Shown in pieces: positions 2,326 through 25,652 of a stretch of DNA of 34,702 bases. Positions within the stretch are counted from its first letter, which is position 1. Every line of letters starts with the position of its first letter. A program made the translations under genes and the position numbers. Source of the DNA: a bacterium (GTDB taxonomy: Bacteria; RBG-13-66-14; B26-G2; WVWN01); contig DATKVX010000046.1 in the NCBI GenBank assembly GCA_035529855.1, positions 1 to 34,702 on the forward strand. Direction: 5' to 3'. The notes below the pieces were generated by a model. It was not told the DNA's origin. It did no database searches and saw nothing but the letters and a program-made list of their open reading frames with translations.

Positions 2326-2456
2326 ATAAAGAAAGTGCCATAATTTTGGGCCACGCAACGTCACCTCGGAGGTTAGTTATGAAGGCTAAGGGACTAATAC
2401 TGATTACCGCGGCGTTTTTCCTCGCCGGCGCCGCCGGCGCGGCGTACGAATACGCG

Positions 2457-3219
2457 GGTAAGTGGGGCTCGAGCGGCTCCGGCAACGGCCAATTTACTAT
2501 GCCCCACGGCGTCGGGGTTGCGTCGAGCGGTAACGTCTACGTCGCCGATACTGGCAACTACCGCATCCAATACTTCACTTCGACAGGCTCGTTCCTCGGC
2601 AAGTGGGGCTCGAGCGGCTCGGGCAACGGTCAATTTAACGCGCCGTTGGGCGTCGCAGTTAACCCGAATACCAATCACGTCTACGTCGCCGATAGTGGCA
2701 ACAACCGCGTCCAATACTTCACCCCGACAGGCTCCTTCCTCGGCAAGTGGGGCTCGGGCGGCTCGGGCAACGGCCAATTCATAAGCTCCACCTGCGTTGC
2801 GGTCGCTTCGAACGGTAACGCATACGTGACCGACATGGGCAACCACCGCGTCCAGTAAGTACTTCACCTCGAGCGGGAGCTACCTCGGCAAGTGGGGCTC
2901 GGCCGGCTCGGGCGACGGCCAATTTAATATGCCCTGGGGCATCGCAGTTACCCCCTCGAGCGGTAACGTATACGTAGTCGATAGTGACAACCACCGCATC
3001 CAATACTTCACCTTGACGGGCTCCTTCCTGGGCAAGTGGGGCTCGTTAGGCTCGGGCGACGGCCAATTTAATATGCCCTGGGGCATCGCAGTTACCCCCT
3101 CGAGCGGTAACGTCTTCGTCGCCGACCGTAACAACTTCCGCATTCAATACTTCGCCTCGAGCGGGAGCTTCCTCGGCAAGTGGGGCTCGTACGGCTCGGG
3201 CAACGGCCAATTTAATGGC
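2457..3219 (+). repeat. In-frame tandem DNA repeats of about 141-144 bp encoding NHL blades
   Basis: The blade-coding units are strongly alike at the DNA level. The clearest pair lies 144 bp apart, with the GGCTCGGGCGACGGCCAA block at 2906 recurring at 3050 and identity running on through the following strand as far as the GGTAACGT motif. These repeats can support slippage or blade gain and loss. Confidence 0.75.
2854..2861 (+). repeat. AGTA tandem duplication causing a frameshift
   Basis: The sequence reads C-AGTA-AGTA-CTTC where sister blades read C-AGTA-CTTC (codons for V-Q-Y-F). The extra four bases create an immediate TAA. Confidence 0.85.
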
Positions 3220-3356
3220 CTCGCGGGCGTCGCAGTTACGCCGGACGGCGCGTACGTTTACACTGTCGAATATGTATACGCCCGCATCCAATATTTCTAC
3301 GACCGATACGTCGGCGTAGCGCCCGCCTCCCTCGGCCGCGTGAAGGCGTTGTTTAG

Positions 3357-3380
3357 GTAGGGGCGAGGGGCCAGTCGCCC
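3357..3380. repeat. Diverged copy of a palindromic element also found at 15378
   Basis: Twenty-two of 24 positions match 15378-15401: GTAGGGGCGA, two mismatches, then GGCCAGTCGCCC. The copy starts one base before the stop codon of the broken NHL gene and supplies that TAG. The right arm end is lost. Confidence 0.6.
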
Positions 3381-3384
3381 ACGG

Positions 3385-3404
3385 CAAGGGGCTTAAGCCC
3401 CTTG
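3385..3404. repeat. Perfect 20-bp palindrome
   Basis: CAAGGGGCTT followed by its exact reverse complement. It lies between the NHL stop codon and the terminator. With no loop and no T-tract it is more like a REP-type remnant than a terminator. Confidence 0.6.
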
Positions 3405-3419
3405 TCCGCGAATAAAAGT

Positions 3420-3450
3420 ACGGGCCGGCCTTCAGGTCGGCCCGTTTTAT
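3420..3450 (+). terminator. Intrinsic terminator of the broken NHL gene
   Basis: An 11-bp stem with one G-T mismatch (ACGGGCCGGCC, loop TTCA, GGTCGGCCCGT) runs into TTTTATTA. Confidence 0.8.
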
Positions 3451-3458
3451 TACGAACG

Positions 3459-3620
3459 GGCGGCGGCCAGTTTAAAAATCCCGACGGAATCGCTATCGCT
3501 TCTAGCGGTCGCGTTTACGTTGCCGATCAGTTAAGAAATGACCGGGTGCAGTACTTCCGCGAAGCTAACCCGGCCGTGACGCCCGCCTCCCTCGGTAAGG
3601 TTAAGGCGTTGTTTCAATAA
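3459..3620 (+). pseudogene. Orphan 3' end of an NHL-repeat gene
   Basis: The frame encodes GGGQFKNPDGIAIASSGRVY and continues as VADQLRNDRVQYF, a single NHL blade that begins abruptly at the GQF motif, then the shared tail in the form TPASLGKVKALFQ before TAA. Homology starts just after the preceding terminator. The frame is open back to an ATG at 3402, but that stretch encodes the hairpin rather than protein-like sequence, and there is no Shine-Dalgarno. I read it as the surviving end of a deleted or recombined NHL gene. It differs from the 2379-3360 copy (Gln instead of Arg at the last position), so it is not a simple fresh duplication of it. Confidence 0.7.
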
Positions 3621-11258: not shown

Positions 11259-12338
11259 GTGAACGGGATTATTAAAAATTGGGTTATAGGCGCGTCAATA
11301 ACCGCCGGGCTTTTATTCATATCTTGCGGAGACGAAAACGGGGAAGGACCTGGCGGCCCGGGCGGCGGCGTAGGGCCGGCTTACTTCGTCGTGGGTTACT
11401 GGAACGATTTATTAATTTATGACGAACAATTCCGGGAGAAACAGTCCGTTGAACTCGACGTGTTTAAAATAACAGTACTCGAGTTCGATAGAGAAAACCG
11501 TTTGATTTGGGTTTTAGGTTGGTGCAAAAATGATAAGTATAAAGTTTATACTTTTGATTTGAACCTCAGCAAAATAGCGGAAGTAAGTTTTACGGACGAT
11601 ATGATCTCGGACCTCAGTTGTACCCCTTATGGCGGAGGGCGGGCGTGGGTCACGAGTTCGTCGCGTGCCGGGTCCAAAGTTCGGCTGCTTAATTCTAAAT
11701 GTAAAATATTAACGACCGTCGCTCTTCCTGAACTGGGTTACCTTTTTTGCGACGCTTTAAGTAAACCTACGAGCGCTAACGCGGACGGTTCTCTTTGGGT
11801 CCAGGTAGAGGAGAAGAGCGGTTGGTATCATAATAAGGGTATAAGGTTGTCTGAATCCGGGAAGATACTCGCGGAGACGCCTATTTTCGGTAGCTGGGGT
11901 TCGACCCTCCCGGCCCAAGACCTTGCCCCGGGAGGCGGTAAAAACTTGTGGGTTAATTGGCAAAGTGGGACCGTATGGAAGTTCGACGGGGCCGGTAAAC
12001 GGGTCCTCGAAGTCGGCGAGAAATTCTACCCCACCGTGCATTTGACGGCTGACGCTTCGGGCGGCGTGGGAGGAACGCCTCATTCGGAGTATTTTTATTA
12101 TTGCTCGGCTTCGGGTAGTATTTCCAAATCTAAAAAACTCTCGAATAATATAGACGGCGTCGTTACTTACGACCCTAACGACGATGCTTTCTACGGCTTT
12201 TGTAGAGTGGAAAACGAGGAGACTAAATACTATTACTATAAATTTGATTCCAAATGTAAGGTTATGGCCGAGGGCTACGTCAATACCGATTTCCGATACC
12301 CAGGCGAAGGTTACCAAATTTTTATATTGGATTATTAA
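11259..12338 (+). CDS. Lipoprotein of unknown function, probable beta-propeller
   Basis: The GTG start lies about 6 nt after a strong GGAGG. The 359-residue protein has a lipoprotein-like signal ending LLFISC, then a flexible Gly/Pro-rich linker (GEGPGGPGGGVGP). The body has repeated W-V/L and F-D-x-x-x-K motifs, such as LIWVLGW, YTFDLNLSK, LWVQVEEKSG and YKFDSKCK, spaced about 40-50 residues. This suggests a WD40/YVTN-like propeller that I cannot assign to a family. Its codons are clearly AT-richer than neighbouring genes, which hints at different ancestry or relaxed selection. It lacks the VKALFR tail and is instead lipid-anchored. It appears monocistronic. Confidence 0.7.
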   Translation: MNGIIKNWVIGASITAGLLFISCGDENGEGPGGPGGGVGPAYFVVGYWNDLLIYDEQFREKQSVELDVFKITVLEFDRENRLIWVLGWCKNDKYKVYTFDLNLSKIAEVSFTDDMISDLSCTPYGGGRAWVTSSSRAGSKVRLLNSKCKILTTVALPELGYLFCDALSKPTSANADGSLWVQVEEKSGWYHNKGIRLSESGKILAETPIFGSWGSTLPAQDLAPGGGKNLWVNWQSGTVWKFDGAGKRVLEVGEKFYPTVHLTADASGGVGGTPHSEYFYYCSASGSISKSKKLSNNIDGVVTYDPNDDAFYGFCRVENEETKYYYYKFDSKCKVMAEGYVNTDFRYPGEGYQIFILDY

Positions 12339-15377: not shown

Positions 15378-15405
15378 GTAGGGGCGACTGGCCAGTCGCC
15401 CCTAC
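15378..15405. repeat. Perfect 28-bp palindromic element
   Basis: Half-site GTAGGGGCGACTGG followed by its exact reverse complement. A partly decayed copy is at 3357-3380. It resembles REP-like dispersed palindromes found outside genes; no ORF or transposase is attached. Confidence 0.7.
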
Positions 15406-15789: not shown

Positions 15790-16596
15790 ATGAACGCACG
15801 ATTTAAATGGGGTATTTACGCCGTCGCGGCGCTGGCCGCGGCGCTTACGTCGCAGGCGGCCGCGGCGTCCGTCGTCAGTTCGTTCAGGATGACGGGCGCC
15901 GGAACGCCGGAGGCGACCGGGATATATCGCGATTGGACGTACGTATACGGCATCTTGTATTCCGCCGGCGCGGATTATCTGGTGACCTATACGCCGGCCG
16001 GTTCGGTGGTGCGTTCGGCGACGTTGCCGCGGTCGGATGCGCCGCGCGACGCGGACCACAGCACGTTGGGCGGCGGCTACGTCGACGTCTTCGATTTCGG
16101 AAAGAAGATGCTCGTGACGTACAAGAAGAACGCCGAATTCGTGAGTGAGAAGCCGCTGCCGTCGGATACGACGGCCTACGCTTACATTCCGGGTTCGTCC
16201 AAGTACTTCATAGCCCGTGACGAGATGGTCTTCCGTTATACCACCAACGACGTACTCGTCAACAAATTCTACGCGGGCGGGTACATCGGCGGCCTGGCCG
16301 CCGCGCCCGTATACGACGGCAAGAACGGCGAGTACGTAATTATCGGCCGGTCCGGCGCGGGCGGCTATTCGTACGTTTACACCGGCGGCGGCTCGCTGGT
16401 GGATTCGTTCGTCGTACCGGGTTCGGGTACGTACGCCTCGGTGGTAGGCCGGGCCGAGCCGAAGGAATCCCAAAGGGCGTACTGGTGCATCCAACGAATC
16501 GGTACCGGCCGGTGGGCTTACCAGGTCGACGTCGGCGGTACCGCGCCGGCCGTCGCGCCGGCGTCGATGGGGAAGGTCAAAGCCATCTATCGTTAA
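15790..16596 (+). CDS. Secreted array protein 1, beta-propeller-like, with VKAxYR tail
   Basis: ATG at 15790 is chosen over an in-frame ATG at 15769 because AAGGAG lies 6 nt before it. A signal peptide ends near AAAASVVSSF. The 268-residue protein shares with the next four genes an N-terminal VVSSFRM block, a YRDWTYVYGI strand, a DADHS motif (about residue 90), a GGLAAAPVYDGKNGEYVIIG block (about 173-192), GGSLVDSF repeats, a YWC motif and the tail VAPASMGKVKAIYR. Recurrent G-S-L-V-x-S-F strands suggest a small propeller, but I recognise no named family. This is the most divergent member near the C-terminus, lacking the paired Cys of CVCGPGYP. Confidence 0.8.
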   Translation: MNARFKWGIYAVAALAAALTSQAAAASVVSSFRMTGAGTPEATGIYRDWTYVYGILYSAGADYLVTYTPAGSVVRSATLPRSDAPRDADHSTLGGGYVDVFDFGKKMLVTYKKNAEFVSEKPLPSDTTAYAYIPGSSKYFIARDEMVFRYTTNDVLVNKFYAGGYIGGLAAAPVYDGKNGEYVIIGRSGAGGYSYVYTGGGSLVDSFVVPGSGTYASVVGRAEPKESQRAYWCIQRIGTGRWAYQVDVGGTAPAVAPASMGKVKAIYR

Positions 16597-16642
16597 CGCG
16601 TCGAAATCGACGCCGGGTATCCGGAATTAAGGGGTTGAGGTG

Positions 16643-17413
16643 ATGACGAGGAAGGCGGGTATAGTGGTCGCGGCGGCGGCTTGCGCCGCGGCGTCGGCGT
16701 TCGGTGCGGTCGGCGACGTTATCAGCTCTTTCCCCTGGCCGAACGCCCGCGACGCTTATCGCGACGGCGATTACGTCTATTGCGTCGTCGGAACCAATAC
16801 GCTGCGGCGGTACGCCGTCGGCGGCTCTCTCGTGGGGACCGTGCCGCTCGGCGGCCTGACCGCCGCGGGCGACGCGGACCACTGCGTCGCCGGCGCGGGT
16901 CGCATGACCGTACTGGGCGGGAGCAACCGCATATTCGAATACCACCTTTCCAACGGCTCGTTGATAAGGTCGTACGCTGCGCCGCCCAGTACTACCGGGT
17001 TCGCGTATTGCCCCGGCGTCGCCTATTACTACGTACACAGCGGCGCGGACGTCCGCCGTTATACGACGGCGGGGAGTCTGGTAAGCAGCTTTACGGTTAG
17101 TTATTCCGACGGGCCCATCGCGGCTACGGACCGCTTCCGGGACCGGGCCGGCGACTACGTCGTCGTGGGCTCAAGGCTCTCTTTCTACGCCACGGTCTAT
17201 ACCGGTACCGGTTCTCTGGTGCGGAGTTTCGTTTTACCGGCGGTGACGTACGGCTGCGTCTGCGGCCCGGGCGCGCCCTCCACCCGCGGTACGACCTATT
17301 GGTGTAACTTGCGTATGGGGACCGATTTCTACGCCTACCAGATCGACCTCGGCAATACGAACGTGGCGCTCGAGCCGGTGTCTATAGGGAAAATTAAAAC
17401 CCTCTACCGTTAG
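16643..17413 (+). CDS. Secreted array protein 2, beta-propeller-like, with VKALYR-type tail
   Basis: The start is ATG at 16643, 8 nt after AAGGGG; a GTG directly before it (16640) is a possible alternative. The signal peptide runs to about FGAVGDV. The mature part has VISSFPWPNARDAYRDGDYV, GDADHC, GPIAATDRF, an AGDYVVVG strand and CVCGPGAPSTRGTTYWC. It ends EPVSIGKIKTLYR, the most diverged tail of the set. It is very like array protein 3 along its whole length, so the pair is a recent tandem duplication. The 46-bp gap before it contains no terminator, which supports an operon. Function unknown; probably cell-surface or secreted. Confidence 0.8.
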   Translation: MTRKAGIVVAAAACAAASAFGAVGDVISSFPWPNARDAYRDGDYVYCVVGTNTLRRYAVGGSLVGTVPLGGLTAAGDADHCVAGAGRMTVLGGSNRIFEYHLSNGSLIRSYAAPPSTTGFAYCPGVAYYYVHSGADVRRYTTAGSLVSSFTVSYSDGPIAATDRFRDRAGDYVVVGSRLSFYATVYTGTGSLVRSFVLPAVTYGCVCGPGAPSTRGTTYWCNLRMGTDFYAYQIDLGNTNVALEPVSIGKIKTLYR

Positions 17414-17464
17414 CCTTTAATAGATGACCCCGTTCAAACCGCTGAACCGTAAGGGATGCGGGAG

Positions 17465-18235
17465 ATGAAAAAGGGAATTTTTGCGGTTATTGCGGCCGGC
17501 GCGGCCTTGAGCGCTTCCCCGGCCGCCGCCGCCGTTGGCGACGTCATAAGCTCGTTCGCCTGGTCGGGCGCCCGCAACGTCTATCGCGACGCCGGCTACG
17601 TTTACTGCGTGGCCGGCGTTAATACGTTTCGGACCTATACGGTCGGCGGGTCCTTGGTCCGCACGGTGTCTCTGAGCGGGTTGACGGACGCCGGCGACGC
17701 GGACCATAGTCCGGCGGGGACCGGCTACTTCGCCGTTATTGAGCGCTCGAGCGTCATATACGAATACGCGGTTTCGAGCGGTTCGTTCGTGAGGTCCATC
17801 GCCGCGGGCCCCGGTACGCTGGGCGGCGGTTACTTCCCGGGAAGCGCGTACGTCTACGTACATATAAACCCGTTCGTACTCCGTTTAACGACCGCGGGGA
17901 GTTTGGTGGGCTCGTTCGTGGTGAGCTATTCCGCGGGGCCGCTCGCGGCGACGAATCGGTTCGACGGCCGGGCCGGCGACTACGTAATAGTAGGGGCGCG
18001 GACGTCCGGCAATACTATGGTCTATACCGGCGCGGGCTCCGTGGTGACCACTTTCAACGTTCCGGGGACGACGTACGGCTGCGTCTGCGGCCCGGGCTAC
18101 CCGTCCACCCGCGGTACGACGTACTGGTGTAATATCGGCGTGGGCTCGAGCCGGTACGCTTACCAGGTCGACCTCGGCAACGCGACGGCCGTCGCGCCGG
18201 CGTCGGTGGGGAAGGTTAAGGCTTTGTATCGCTGA
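17465..18235 (+). CDS. Secreted array protein 3, beta-propeller-like, with VKALYR tail
   Basis: ATG at 17465 lies 8 nt after AAGGGA and begins MKKGIFAVIAAGAALSASP, a clear signal peptide; an ATG at 17456 overlaps the Shine-Dalgarno and is less likely. The mature protein has AVGDVISSFAWSGARNVYRD, GDADHS, GPLAATNRFDGRAGDYVIVG and CVCGPGYPSTRGTTYWC. The tail is VAPASVGKVKALYR. Two cysteines flank the GPGYP loop, a candidate disulfide in the exported protein. It is the closest relative of array protein 2. Confidence 0.8.
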   Translation: MKKGIFAVIAAGAALSASPAAAAVGDVISSFAWSGARNVYRDAGYVYCVAGVNTFRTYTVGGSLVRTVSLSGLTDAGDADHSPAGTGYFAVIERSSVIYEYAVSSGSFVRSIAAGPGTLGGGYFPGSAYVYVHINPFVLRLTTAGSLVGSFVVSYSAGPLAATNRFDGRAGDYVIVGARTSGNTMVYTGAGSVVTTFNVPGTTYGCVCGPGYPSTRGTTYWCNIGVGSSRYAYQVDLGNATAVAPASVGKVKALYR

Positions 18236-18269
18236 GTTCACATTAATATGAATATAAGGGGGTAGAGAG

Positions 18270-19094
18270 ATGATTGCGGTACGTTTATTTTTTTACGGCG
18301 CGGCGTTAATTTTAGTCGGGGCCGTACCCGCGTTTTGCTCGTTGGGATCGGTGATAAGTTCTTTCAAGGTAGCCGACAATAGGTTCGTCGACGCATACAG
18401 CGTAGGCCGGGACGCGACGTACGTTTATTACATTACGAAAGACCGCCCAACGCCTGGCTACAGGTTGACCTACCGTTACCCGGGTGGCGGCGGCGGTAGG
18501 TCGTTATGGATCTACGGTTTTCCCGCGAGCCACGGCGACGCCGACCGCAGCGTCTTGGGTTTCGGTTACATAGCCGACATCTACCAAGAAGGTAGCGGCC
18601 CCCAGACTGTTACGGACTTCGACATTAGGACCGGCTCGGCCGTGGCGTCATGGGCGCCGTTGAGTAGCATGCAGGGTTACGCGTACAACCCCGCCCGCCG
18701 CATCCGGTACGTTGGGATTAGCAACTACGTGTACCGGTATAATATGCGGGGGAGTTTGCTCAGTTCTTTCGGGGCACCCATAGGTATATCGGGCCTTGCC
18801 GCTCCGCAGGAGTTCGCAGGAAAGCCGGGCGAATACATAATCGTTACTAGAGGCAATTATTGGTACGCGTTTACCGGTCAAGGAGTCGAAGTCGCCCGGG
18901 TCCTGTTTCCTTGGGAGTTTTCCGGTATCTCTACCAGCGCTTGCGGCCCCGGTTACCCGCCGGCGTACGGAAATACGCTGTGGTGCTTGGCGACGGTTAA
19001 ATTGGCGGACGTCTACGTATGCCAGTTATACCTCGGCAACGCCACGGCCGTAGCGCCGGCGTCGGTGGGGAGGATAAAGGCGTTGTATCGTTAG
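18270..19094 (+). CDS. Secreted array protein 4, beta-propeller-like, with IKALYR tail
   Basis: The ATG follows GGGGTAGAGAG. A signal peptide ends near AVPAFCSLGS. The 274-residue product keeps the family landmarks in altered form: LGSVISSFKV, RDATYVYYI, GDADRS instead of DADHS, GLAAPQEFAGKPGEYIIV, CGPGYPPAYGNTLWC, and VAPASVGRIKALYR at the end. It has an extra Gly-rich loop (PGGGGGRS). Codon choice is AT-richer than in proteins 1-3, suggesting an older duplication or a separate source. Confidence 0.8.
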   Translation: MIAVRLFFYGAALILVGAVPAFCSLGSVISSFKVADNRFVDAYSVGRDATYVYYITKDRPTPGYRLTYRYPGGGGGRSLWIYGFPASHGDADRSVLGFGYIADIYQEGSGPQTVTDFDIRTGSAVASWAPLSSMQGYAYNPARRIRYVGISNYVYRYNMRGSLLSSFGAPIGISGLAAPQEFAGKPGEYIIVTRGNYWYAFTGQGVEVARVLFPWEFSGISTSACGPGYPPAYGNTLWCLATVKLADVYVCQLYLGNATAVAPASVGRIKALYR

Positions 19095-19128
19095 CTTCGC
19101 ATAGCGTAACGTTAACAGGGGTTCCAAA

Positions 19129-19986
19129 ATGAGAAGGCCGAGGTTTGGCTTAGTCGTAGTACTTATAGTTCTAACCGCAGCGGCCGCTAACGCCGGCGTG
19201 GGCTCGGTGATAAGTTCGTTTCGTATGAGCGGGGATAACGAACCGTATGCAGTCGCCGTCTACCGGGATGCGAACTTCGTTTATGGCGTTTTACAATACG
19301 GCCCTTCCGGCGAACACGAGTTCGAACTATCTACGTACGCTCCGGATGGTTCGGCCTTGGGCTCTATCCCGTTGAGTTGTACGCCGGGATGGGCCAATTG
19401 CCGCCTTGATTGGCTCAACGACGCGGACCACAGCGTATTAGGCGACGGGTATTTTGGGATAATCGGCGTGGGTAAATCTTTTCCCCCTTTCGGTTTAGAT
19501 TTTAATATTAAAACCGGTTCTATCGTGGGGAGTTTCCCGACGTCTCCGTACGCTAGGGCTTACGCGCATATTCCTGGTGGAGCATATATTTACGTAGGTC
19601 AATCCTATCCAAGCAATATTTTCCGCTTAACGACGTCCGGGAGCCTCGTTAGTTCGTTTAATCCACGTGACGTATGCGACCTTTTGGCGGCGACGGATTA
19701 CTTCAAAGGCCTAAACGGCGCGTACCTTATATCATACGGCGGCGGCAGCGGGTTGTACCACCACGTTTATACTGACGCCGGGTCATTGGTAGGCTCTTTC
19801 TGGTTAGGGCCTTTCAGTATGACTTTCGCCGGCGTTTGTGGCCCGGGTTACCCGTCGTACTACGGCACAACGTATTGGTGCATTAGTTGGGGGAGCGGCG
19901 GCTTATGGTGTTACCAGATAGACCTCGCCAACCGCGTCGCTGTCGCGCCCGCTTCGGTGGGGAAGGTTAAGGCCCTTTTCAGGTAA
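19129..19986 (+). CDS. Secreted array protein 5, beta-propeller-like, with VKALFR tail
   Basis: ATG at 19129 starts MRRPRFGLVVVLIVLTAAAA, a signal peptide. The 285-residue product is the longest array member. Landmarks are VGSVISSFRMSG, VYRDANFVYGV, NDADHSVLGDGYF, LLAATDYFKGLNGAYLI, VCGPGYPSYYGTTYWC and the tail VAVAPASVGKVKALFR. Extra cysteines occur in a loop (SCTPGWANCR). Its last residues match those of the NHL proteins (KALFR) more than its array siblings (KALYR). A strong terminator follows, closing the operon. Confidence 0.8.
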   Translation: MRRPRFGLVVVLIVLTAAAANAGVGSVISSFRMSGDNEPYAVAVYRDANFVYGVLQYGPSGEHEFELSTYAPDGSALGSIPLSCTPGWANCRLDWLNDADHSVLGDGYFGIIGVGKSFPPFGLDFNIKTGSIVGSFPTSPYARAYAHIPGGAYIYVGQSYPSNIFRLTTSGSLVSSFNPRDVCDLLAATDYFKGLNGAYLISYGGGSGLYHHVYTDAGSLVGSFWLGPFSMTFAGVCGPGYPSYYGTTYWCISWGSGGLWCYQIDLANRVAVAPASVGKVKALFR

Positions 19987-21949: not shown

Positions 21950-23596
21950 TTATCGCACTATTACCATCCGCTTGGCGGCCTCGTCGTCGCCGGCCTCGAG
22001 TTTGTAAACGTAGACGCCGGGGGCGAAGTCGAACGCGAGCTCGAGCACGTGTTTGCCGGCGCTATAGTCGCCCCGCGTCCGGTATACTTCGCGGCCGGCG
22101 AGGTCGTAGACGCGGAAGGACGCCGTGCCGGCGCGCGCCAGCGCGAACGCGACCGCGGTCCGGCCGTACGTCGCCGGGTTGGGGTAGTTCTGGCCCAGCG
22201 CGAACGTGGCCTTGACCGCGCCGGCGGTGCGCTCCACCGGTCCGGTAATCCGGTAGTGGCCGCTCGGACTTAACGCCTCCAGCCAGTAGCGGTACGTCGT
22301 CGCCGGGACGACGTCCGTATCCGCAAAGGCGTACGGCGGGTCGCCCGTGAGCGGGGTATCGGTTATTTTCGCTCGTCCGGGCAGGCCTTTCGTCTCACGG
22401 TACAGGTTGTAGGCGGCGGCGTGGGTTTCGAACGCGGGGTCCCAGCTCAGGACGAGCCTACCGGGCTCCGCGGCCGCGGCGAAGTTCGTCACGCTCAAAT
22501 CGCGGATAATGCGGTCCATCCCCATCATGCACAGGTACGACGTGACCCAGGTATGGTCGCCTGTTTCGCTGCCGGCTTGCGAGGGGGGGATGCCGCCGTC
22601 GTCGTCCGTATCCTGGGCGACGAGGTTAGACGCGATTTTATCGAATTTAGACCAGTACGAGTCGTCGCCCGTCGCGTGGTAGCAGCTGTGGTGGCCGAAC
22701 ATATACCACGCGTTCCACGCGTTGTCCCACGAGCCGGCGCTGGGTTCCACCAGCGTTTTGAGGTACGGCCCGTGTTTTACCATCCAGGACCGCTCGTCGC
22801 CCGGGTGCTCTTGGAAGTAAGAGTTGTGGAGGCCCCATATCGCGGCGCCGCCCGACATGGCCCAGCTATTATACCCGATGCACCAACCCGGCGCTTCCTC
22901 CGCCAGCGATTTAACCTTCGACGCCAGCGACAGCGCTACGACCTTCAGGTCGGCGTCGCCCACGTCCTCCGCGTATTCGTAGAGGTTGCCGACGGCCCAC
23001 GCCGTGCATAAGTAGTTGGTCAGGTACGAAATATTCTCGATTTCGATGGGGTTCTCGGCGACGAAGCGCGCGCACGTAAGGCCGTAGTTTTTACGGGATT
23101 CGTCGCCGGTCGCCCGTCGGTACATCATCTCGGCGCGCATGCCCCAACCGCAATTGTAGATCCGGTAATATTTAGAGGCCGGGTTTTCCCAACCTTCCTC
23201 TTCCCACGCCGGGTTTTTGTTTATATAAATCCAGGAGCGCGCGACGGCGTCGTCGTACTTGCGGCTGCCGGTGAGCTGACGCCACCGCGACCACACCCAA
23301 ACCGACTCTTGGGTGTTATCGGTCTGGATGATTTCGGGCATGTTCTCGCCCTCGCGGATGCCGCCGTAGTTCGGGTCGTTGGGGTCTTTGACCTGCCAGT
23401 ACTCGATGAAGGCGCACGCCTTTCCGAAAACCGCTTCGGCGTCGTATTCTTCGGCGCGGGCGTCGTAGCCCAGGCGCGGCTGGAGCGGCGGCCCGGGCGG
23501 CCGGGCCAACTCCTCCGCGGTCCAAAATTCGGTGGCGAACGCGGCCGTCCCGACCGCGACCGCGGTTAGCGTTATTGCCAGGTTGTTTTTAAACAT
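21950..23596 (-). CDS. Secreted alpha/alpha-barrel-like protein with FN3 and T9SS-type C-terminal domain
   Basis: ATG at 23596 follows GGGAGGAA and starts MFKNNLAITLTAVAVGTAAF, a signal peptide. The 548-residue product has an alpha-helical region (about 25-395) with repeated W/Y-rich helices (QESVWVWSRWRQLTG, SWDNAWNAWYMFGHHSCY), as in alpha/alpha-toroid glycosidases or lyases. Catalytic residues cannot be identified. A fibronectin-type segment (about 400-465) comes next. Then GAVKATF leads directly into ALGQNYPNPATYGRTAV, the classic start of a FlgD-like/Por-secretion tail domain that ends VYVYKLEAGDDEAAKRMVIVR-like. This domain directs type IX secretion in Bacteroidota; the route here is unproven. 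No T9SS machinery gene is visible. Confidence 0.8.
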   Translation of the reverse strand: MFKNNLAITLTAVAVGTAAFATEFWTAEELARPPGPPLQPRLGYDARAEEYDAEAVFGKACAFIEYWQVKDPNDPNYGGIREGENMPEIIQTDNTQESVWVWSRWRQLTGSRKYDDAVARSWIYINKNPAWEEEGWENPASKYYRIYNCGWGMRAEMMYRRATGDESRKNYGLTCARFVAENPIEIENISYLTNYLCTAWAVGNLYEYAEDVGDADLKVVALSLASKVKSLAEEAPGWCIGYNSWAMSGGAAIWGLHNSYFQEHPGDERSWMVKHGPYLKTLVEPSAGSWDNAWNAWYMFGHHSCYHATGDDSYWSKFDKIASNLVAQDTDDDGGIPPSQAGSETGDHTWVTSYLCMMGMDRIIRDLSVTNFAAAAEPGRLVLSWDPAFETHAAAYNLYRETKGLPGRAKITDTPLTGDPPYAFADTDVVPATTYRYWLEALSPSGHYRITGPVERTAGAVKATFALGQNYPNPATYGRTAVAFALARAGTASFRVYDLAGREVYRTRGDYSAGKHVLELAFDFAPGVYVYKLEAGDDEAAKRMVIVR

Positions 23597-23628
23597 AACG
23601 GGTTCCTCCCGGCGGCTTATTTTTGCGT

Positions 23629-25652
23629 TTACGGTTTTTCGGGGACGAACGCGAAGTTCTGGTCGTCCCAAACGTACTCATCGACGAATATCGTTTCGCT
23701 TTCCGCGGTCTTAATCGTCCCGCCGGCCGTCATGATAAGCCGGGGCGTGGCCTCGAGCGAAAGCGTCGCTTCGTACTCGTACGCGGGTTCGGCGTCCCGC
23801 GTCTCTTCGGTTTTGACGCGGCCTACCTCGCGCATGACCGAGCCGTCGTAGCGGTAGAGGAGCTCGTGCGCGACGCGGCCGCCCTCGGCGTCCAACGTTT
23901 CGCGGCAGGACAGCAGCGCCGGGCCGGCGTCGAAGACGTCCCAAACCTCGAGCAGCCACAGCGAAGGCCGTCCTTGCGTCAGGAATTCACCCACGAATTC
24001 GTCGCCCGTCCGGAGGAAGTAATATAGCTCGTCCGGTTCTCCGTCCTTTTGCACGAGAACCGCGGCGTCGGCGGACCCCTCGCCGTCGAGGTCGCCGGTT
24101 TCCAACGTCAGGTAATCGTAGCCGCCGCGCTCGTCGAGGTAGTCGAGGAAGTGGCGGCGTTTGCTCCCTTCCCGGACCGCGGCGTAGCCTATCACCGCGT
24201 CGGCGGCGTCGTCGCTCCACCAATCGGCGAGGTCCGCGCATTCCACGTAGTACCCTACCGCCGCGCCGTGGTCGCCGGCCGCGGCGGCGCAATCGCCCAA
24301 CCTCAAATAATCGTAGCCTTCGAATACGCCGTGGGGAAATTCGGCCAGCGAGTTTTCGTACAATCGCGCCGCGGTCTTGAATTCGCCGACGTGGTAAAAG
24401 CAATCCGCTAAATGGGTCAGCGTCTGCGCGCGTTCTTCGGCGTCGGGAGCGCGTTTTAGGTAGCTTTTTAGGTCCTTCTTAAACCGGTTCAGCTCTTGCT
24501 TGCTCAGGCCGACGCTCTCCTCGTAGTTCACGTCGTACAGCGCTTCGCGCACCGCGTACGCGTACGCCTGCGGCCAACGGGGATGGTGGGGCGGTTATTT
24601 TTTAAAAAGGCCGTCAGCTCGTCGAACGTGCCGATTTCGATTGCCGCTTCCGCCGCGGCCGCGGACTCGGGGTACCGGTCGATTAACTCCCGGCGCTCGT
24701 CGCTGCCGCCGCGGTAGAAAAGCCGTATCGCCTCTGCGGGGTCGTTTTTTAGTCGCCTTAGGAACTCCCGGCGTCGTTCTGCCGCCGCTTCGAGCGAGGG
24801 GTCGAGCGCCGCGGCCTGTGTAAGGTATTCCAAGGCCGCCGCGACGTTACCCTCCTCGAGCAGCGCCGCGCCGGCGAGTACGAGCTTAGAGGCGGGGGAA
24901 TCGTCCCGTTCCAGGAATTCGCGGAATTTATCGACGTCCGAGGCGGCGAAGTTGCCGGAGCCGTCCGCGGCGTATAATGCGGCCTCGACGTACGTGAACG
25001 GGCCTTCTTCGGCCGGGCGTTCGCGCGTGAAAGTCCAAAGCTCGAGCGCGCCGTCGCCGTCTACGTCGTCGAAGGTAAATTCGGTCGTCCGCTCGACGTA
25101 GGCGCCGTACTCCCAGGCCGAGGAGTCGTCGCCGCCGTACCAGCGCGAGTAATAATCCTCGCGCGAGCCTGTTTCGCCCTCGAAAGCCTTGAGGAGCTTT
25201 TCGCCGTCCACCCGGTACAATATGAAGTAGTCGTATTCGGTTCCCATGCCCGAGCCGTACGACGCCTCGGTGCAGGTGAAGGCGTAGTACGTCCGCGGCC
25301 CCGGTTGGACCTTGGCGACGGTCCCCTCGTCGCCGCCGAAGTCGGGCACGTAGTTAACGGGCCCGTCGAAGTCGGCTACGCGCCAGGCGTCGCCGTCCCG
25401 GACGAAAAGCGCCAGGTACACCTCCGTATAGTAGCCGTACGCCACCCGGGCCGCGGCGAGCCCCTGGTCCGGCGTTTCGCCCTCGACGAACGCGCCGGTC
25501 GTTACCCCTTCCGGTTCGCCGTACCCTTCGCCGATTTGCTCGAGCAATATCTTCTCCGCCGTCGCCGCGTCCGGGAACGCGGCTCGAGCCGAAGCCGCCG
25601 CGACGAGCGCGACGAACGTAACCCAACCTAACTTCTTCCAGGTAGCGTACAC
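23629..25652 (-). pseudogene. Exported TPR-like repeat protein split by a one-base frameshift
   Basis: A GTG at 25652 starts MYATWKKLGWVTFVALVAAA, a signal peptide. The first frame has beta-rich sequence, a DVDGDGALELW calcium-loop-like motif and TPR-like helices (AALEYLTQAAALDPSLEAA), then runs into a basic nonsense tail after FLKNN and stops near 24528. A second frame continues naturally through WPQAYAYAVREALYDVNYEE, more TPR helices (HLADCFYHVGEFKTAARLYE) and another DLDGEGSAD loop, to TAA at 23629. Adding one base near the GGGG runs at 24588-24591 or 24579-24582 gives 2025 bp, 675 codons. The second half has no Shine-Dalgarno at its nominal GTG (24552). It is either a real lesion or a homopolymer error. 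Function unknown. Confidence 0.75.

Follow-up and report, generated by a model that had tools for sequence, protein, structure and literature searches.

The stretch of DNA examined here, which we call the window, is the whole 34,702-nucleotide contig DATKVX010000046.1 (assembly GCA_035529855.1) from a 2.62 Mb metagenome-assembled genome (MAG) of an uncultured Candidatus Coatesbacteria (hereafter G000). Its forward strand carries a tandem array of five intact open reading frames (ORFs), which an earlier note on the bare sequence had rightly singled out as coding for related secreted proteins. They lie at 15790-16596 (gene 1, 268 amino acids, aa), 16643-17413 (gene 2, 256 aa), 17465-18235 (gene 3, 256 aa, with a possible alternative ATG start 9 bp upstream), 18270-19094 (gene 4, 274 aa) and 19129-19986 (gene 5, 285 aa). 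All five products begin with the hydrophobic signal-type N-terminus that the note had read as a signal peptide, and they share 36-61% pairwise aa identity. Of all pairs, genes 2 and 3 are the most alike, but 61% identity (63% in the body) falls short of the close duplicates described earlier. Genes 4 and 5 are indeed richer in AT (GC 0.57 and 0.54; GC at third codon positions, GC3, 0.68 and 0.59) than genes 1-3 (GC 0.63-0.65; GC3 0.79-0.80). The sequence blocks listed for the array are all present, but with variants, such as VVSSF for VISSF in gene 1 and GRDATYVY and YRDANFVY for the YRDxxYVY block in genes 4 and 5; the DADHS block reads DADH or DADR, and the LAA block LAA...Y-[VIL]-I. The loop given as CGPGYP...YWC occurs as CGPGYP...WC, becomes CGPGAP in gene 2 and is absent from gene 1. 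Models of Pfam, NCBIfam and PHROGs all scored below their cut-offs against the array proteins, none of which reached the gathering thresholds of the NHL, WD40 and Vgb_lyase families of Pfam, consistent with an undescribed family.

The AlphaFold model of the gene 3 product, computed from an alignment of 91 paralogues, is an all-beta structure with a disordered C-terminal tail (predicted local distance difference test score, pLDDT, 90.4; predicted template modeling score, pTM, 0.85) and shows 19 strands of at least three residues, in addition to short strands at 36-41 that we assigned as strand A of blade 1. Five outer-strand motifs recur along this protein (GDVISSF at residue 25, GSLVRTV at 62, GSFVRSI at 106, GSLVGSF at 145 and GSVVTTF at 191), and together with the strand order they point to five blades, with the N-terminal strand closing blade 5. 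On this model the fold is a five-bladed beta-propeller of four-stranded blades with a closed ring, the blade count being our own assignment. Each array gene would hence make a Sec-exported propeller closed by an N-terminal velcro strand, in which VISSF would form the outer strand of blade 5 and GS[LFV]V those of blades 1-4. Foldseek also placed propellers closest, the best among the matches listed being the glutaminyl cyclases 3nol and 3nok (TM-scores on the query, TMq, 0.59/0.58, and on the target, TMt, 0.64/0.63), which are five-bladed. Profile searches matched a WD-40 repeat structure at 9e-39, as well as NHL and virginiamycin lyase structures; with the model and Foldseek, these bear out the earlier suspicion of a propeller fold. 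The NHL, WD40, SGL and Vgb-lyase propellers and the glutaminyl cyclases have the same blade repeats and velcro closure as the array family, from which they differ in that identity is only about 10% and the array proteins have five short blades whose outer strand reads GS[LV]V. The presence of glutaminyl cyclases among the nearest structures, along with weak matches of a few of the 91 family members to the Vgb_lyase or SGL models, might suggest that the array encodes soluble enzymes of the periplasm or the extracellular space that resemble glutaminyl cyclase or virginiamycin lyase. However, we regard this as improbable: the identities are 10-11%, genes 1-5 match no such family, and the sole column invariant over the 91 paralogues is a glycine in the tail.

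Variation among the paralogues is concentrated in the loops joining strands B to C and D to A (BC and DA; 0.73 and 0.96 bits), where the summed insertion frequency is 0.5-1.0 in most; the AB and CD loops show 1.12 and 1.96 bits and summed insertion frequencies of 0-0.36. In the geometry usual for propellers, BC and DA loops lie on one face, and this single face, variable in both sequence and length, would furnish the array with a set of binding surfaces. The earlier proposal of diversifying surface functions is supported to this extent, as one-sided variation is what might be expected of a binding surface, but its suggested link to the interplay of phages and hosts is not.

Three congeners bear on the history of the array: Candidatus Coatesbacteria bin961 (CP070633, G002), JAUWLW (G001) and WVWN (G003), all of which have the same C-terminal tail. 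JAUWLW (CSMAG_2382) and WVWN (A-C077) were deposited as Zixiibacteriota but fall in the same genus as this Coatesbacteria genome; those labels are probably wrong. The array family has at least 35 profile matches in G000 and at least 29-32 in each of the three congeners, these counts being lower bounds from 42 candidates scored per genome, in which some matches are pieces of one gene. There are four matches in a genome of the same order, one or none in genomes of the same class and essentially none in other phyla, so that copy number in relatives is high and variable. In a further member of the class (G006) the sole tail-bearing ORF (L116) also resembles the array family. The array locus is syntenic with a contig of G001 (C76), with flanking proteins at 81-94% aa identity. 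Genes 1 and 2 have orthologues there at 88% and 87% identity, whereas genes 3, 4 and 5 have none (best matches 63%, 40% and 42%), and two other family members sit in their place. Close relatives thus differ in the distal genes of the array, which turn over, and a recent arrival of genes 4 and 5 would fit their lower GC3. Chance or duplication in assembly is ruled out as the source of the array by the synteny, the diverged orthologues of genes 1 and 2 and the paralogues on other contigs. Several draft contigs of G000 terminate in or near genes of this family. A tandem, divergent array that turns over might also be expected of a phage-related recognition or defense system, but we consider this very improbable: PHROGs returned nothing, a single-protein scan of IMG/VR found no relative, and no phage gene was recognized among the scanned ORFs of the window.

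The propeller body is followed by a tail of 14-16 residues, predicted to be free, with the pattern VxPxSxGxxKxx[FY][RK]. It occupies 16552-16593 in gene 1 (VAPASMGKVKAIYR), 17369-17410 in gene 2 (LEPVSIGKIKTLYR), 18191-18232 in gene 3 (VAPASVGKVKALYR; pLDDT below 60 in the model), 19050-19091 in gene 4 (VAPASVGRIKALYR) and 19942-19983 in gene 5 (VAPASVGKVKALFR), all on the forward strand, and its consensus is V-x-P-x-S-[LVF]-G-[RK]-[VI]-K-A-L-[FY]-[RK]-stop. No other part of the family is as well conserved: the last 14 columns hold 2.96 bits each as against 1.43 in the body across the 91 paralogues. Two unrelated models, one of them that of the gene 3 product, show the tail as disordered. To follow it at the DNA level, we used a pattern for its last eight residues and the stop codon, with the reversed pattern as a control. 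This pattern occurs at 99 places in G000 (control 0) and at 112-142 in the congeners, at 24 and 15 places in the next relatives and at 0-3 in the rest of the phylum, with 0-1 control matches in these genomes. The matches are real, because residues outside the search pattern are fixed as well: among 58 tail-bearing ORFs the serine at -10 is present in every one and the proline at -12 in 56, and the corresponding counts among the 30 tail proteins from outside the array family are 30 and 28. In another phylum, the pattern is found 144 times in 58 genomes of the class of G038, against 16 control matches, and four of the five stop-ending tail loci inspected there look secreted; a Krumholzibacteriia MAG also has the tail. 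In other genomes, we discounted as false those matches that fell on very short ORFs or on DnaJ. Small secreted proteins with similar, possibly fibronectin-like, bodies that end in TWGSIKAMFR were seen at loci L108 (G014), L111 (G020) and L130. In the literature we found no description of this tail or of Coatesbacteria secretion.

The 99 places in G000 comprise 58 ORFs with a signal-type N-terminus, 14 that run past the stretch examined and 27 others, namely genes with an in-frame TGA, frameshifted genes and remnants. As the 58 were chosen for their N-termini, the unselected comparison is the informative one: a signal-like N-terminus is found in 91% of tail-bearing ORFs and in 42% of the remaining ORFs from those stretches. 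Sorted in a simple way, the 58 comprise 28 propellers of the array family, 10 NHL propellers and 20 others, among which are a PD40 protein, a cupredoxin and members of a beta-sandwich family. The tail is terminal in 63 occurrences and internal in four. Hence, although the earlier note was correct that the C-terminal block is present in all five array proteins, it is not particular to their family but common to unrelated secreted proteins throughout the genome, which makes a sorting signal a better reading of it than a part of the fold.

The DNA encoding the tails points to selection on the peptide: third codon positions diverge by 0.58 and second positions by 0.18, and the 21 tails reading GRVKALFR are spelled by 15 different DNA sequences. 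This synonymous divergence disfavors a mobile repeat acting at the DNA level. It also bears on the possibility that the tail is a conserved terminal relic of little function, which gene conversion and the duplication of gene ends would have spread. Orphan tail-coding DNA lies 3' of unrelated genes (L048, end 3651; L288, end 5520; L290, end 2237), as if only the last codons of a whole gene had survived its loss, which would speak for rapid gene birth and loss, and a palindromic repeat follows some tails. However, the codon-position divergence, the diversity of the DNA spelling one peptide and the tails of the same pattern in other phyla make such a relic hard to credit. The palindrome itself (GGGGCGACTGGCCAGTCGCCC) is repeated: it lies between genes at about 15380-15402 of the window and again at L052, L297, L300, L301 and L310, and in some loci directly follows a tail gene.

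A candidate reader for such a signal is present in the genome. SprA is represented by a match to PF14349 at 35 bits (cut-off 27) and one to TIGR04189 at 1e-36, the latter below the full-length cut-off of 200 in an ORF truncated by a contig end. The PorV family has 10 matches (NF033709 at 208 bits, cut-off 90), and there are 23 matches to the type A C-terminal domain (CTD) of the type IX secretion system (T9SS). Thus the SprA translocon, the PorV family and type A cargo are all found in G000. One classical cargo protein, of 573 aa with a type A sorting domain (TIGR04183 at 39.3 bits, cut-off 23), is encoded at 21950-23671 on the reverse strand, 2 kb from the array. The SprA gene is followed by genes for two homologues of TolQ/ExbB-type channels (L334, C87), and ORF sizes and order appear alike in G001 (L335, C76); this pair is possibly a different motor for the T9SS-like system. 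Secreted tail proteins were verified in three genomes from outside the phylum (G014, G020 and G038), and SprA is present in all three, compared with 10 of 47 genomes overall (p=0.007).

We accordingly favor, with a probability of about 0.58, the view that the array encodes propellers with one variable face and that their tail is a general C-terminal sorting signal, most plausibly for the SprA/PorV route. An outer-membrane system would read the tail and deliver the array proteins, together with numerous further secreted proteins, to the cell surface or beyond it, and the SprA/PorV (type IX-like) route would be its most plausible reader; we infer all three of the tail's role as a signal, this reader and the binding of ligands at the surface. 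Several points weigh against this. Secretion was called by hydropathy rather than SignalP. The p value for co-occurrence rests on three positive genomes and may reflect phylogeny. SprA is not sufficient for tails: in family f5, which belongs to this phylum, tails are almost absent although SprA, PorV-family proteins and type A CTDs are all there. SprA was not found in the tail-rich G002 or in G004. An inverse relation between the counts of tails and type A CTDs, suggestive at first, was not significant across 14 genomes (rho -0.26, p=0.37). The observations on f5, on G002 and G004 and on the tail and CTD counts weaken the attribution to the T9SS. Finally, the tail lacks motif B (Gly, Tyr) and motif D (GxY), which T9SS CTDs have.

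Alternatively, rather than directing translocation, the tail could be an anchoring or docking peptide that replaces lipidation: once exported in some other way, for example by type II secretion, the proteins would be held by it to a common scaffold, such as an S-layer-like protein, lipopolysaccharide or an outer-membrane barrel. The NHL propellers of tail-poor genomes in the phylum appear to be lipoproteins and have no tail, which suggests that the tail may stand in for another localization signal; the tail-bearing propellers lack a lipobox, which is found in just two of the 58 tail ORFs. The shortness and disorder of the tail and the failure of SprA alone to predict tails would suit docking too. 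However, the tail co-occurs with SprA and PorV and no candidate scaffold was found, and we regard docking as possible but doubtful.

The known signals of the T9SS are the type A (PF18962/TIGR04183), type B (TIGR04131) and type C (cl41395) domains (PMC10202324), and the shuttles of the system differ by signal type (PMC12618676; PMC9143113). The short CTDs of Prevotella intermedia have 43-55 residues and keep motifs B, D and E (PMC11969387), while the C-terminal end of the CTD is essential for export and the signal of HBP35 has been localized to its last 22 residues (PMC11285876). Like these domains, the tail is C-terminal, is borne by many Sec-exported proteins unrelated to one another and occurs alongside homologues of SprA and PorV in the genome, and its end, basic with a hydrophobic stretch, is reminiscent of motif E. 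Unlike them, it has 14-16 residues rather than about 43-100 and forms neither a beta-sandwich nor a three-stranded sheet, and it coexists with classical type A CTDs in the same genome. No CTD model of Pfam or NCBIfam matches the tail, and the five array proteins gave no match to the type A domain (PF18962/TIGR04183) at E<=10 in Pfam and NCBIfam; with a conserved region of about 14 residues the tail falls outside every T9SS CTD type, short ones included, under the published motif definition (PMC11969387). As it resembles at most motif E, we do not file it as a T9SS CTD, although it may work like one. The signals of PEP-CTERM/exosortase and other CTERM systems are likewise short, C-terminal and common to many secreted proteins, but PEP-CTERM has a transmembrane helix, for which the tail is too short and too basic, and no match to the exosortase model PF09721 was found in G000; we therefore rejected this reading. 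More tentatively, this tail of about 14 residues, found at about a hundred places in each genome of one Coatesbacteria genus and in low copy number in other SprA-positive groups, could be an unrecognized signal, far shorter than any other, for a type IX-like outer-membrane secretion route outside Bacteroidota, with the array propellers as its most expanded cargo.

Three further relatives lie elsewhere in the window, all on the forward strand and all overlooked by the earlier note. An NHL-repeat propeller with the same tail (VVPASLGRVKALFR) is encoded at 83-910, its frame open to the contig start. A second NHL propeller with the tail, at 2379-3360, has a frameshift near 2855 that stems from a small insertion, and a tail-bearing remnant of an NHL gene follows at 3402-3620; each of the latter two reflects either a decayed gene or an assembly error. 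Apart from these three, an AT-rich gene at 11259-12338 (GC about 0.46-0.47) weakly matches the array-family profile and has no tail.

Among the tail genes with an in-frame TGA is a secreted family of about 210 aa, in which the TGA falls at one conserved site, YP[FW]xGC-TGA-xxxxxRxQDLVL. At least 13 members occur in this genome and its relatives (L305 on contig C82 of G000, L307, L144 and L162; in relatives L165, L184 and L253). A selenocysteine tRNA (tRNA-Sec) scores above cut-off in G000, and judging from these sequences this is a probable new selenoprotein family with a Cys-Sec pair; its model is a beta-sandwich with weak CBM/PHR-like matches. In bin961, two proteins resembling PD40 propellers (L242, ends 5427 and 6483) have a TGA after a cysteine in N-T-x-x-x-D-C-TGA-PVLTSD, possibly another Cys-Sec pair.

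Should the tail prove to be a sorting signal, a short motif would suffice to read directly much of the Coatesbacteria secretome, along with a part of those of Krumholzibacteriia and other uncultured groups, and recognizing a secretion signal would come down to a peptide open to synthesis and testing. This would also explain why the array proteins keep their C-termini alike while one face of the propeller diverges, as a combination of fixed delivery with variable recognition.

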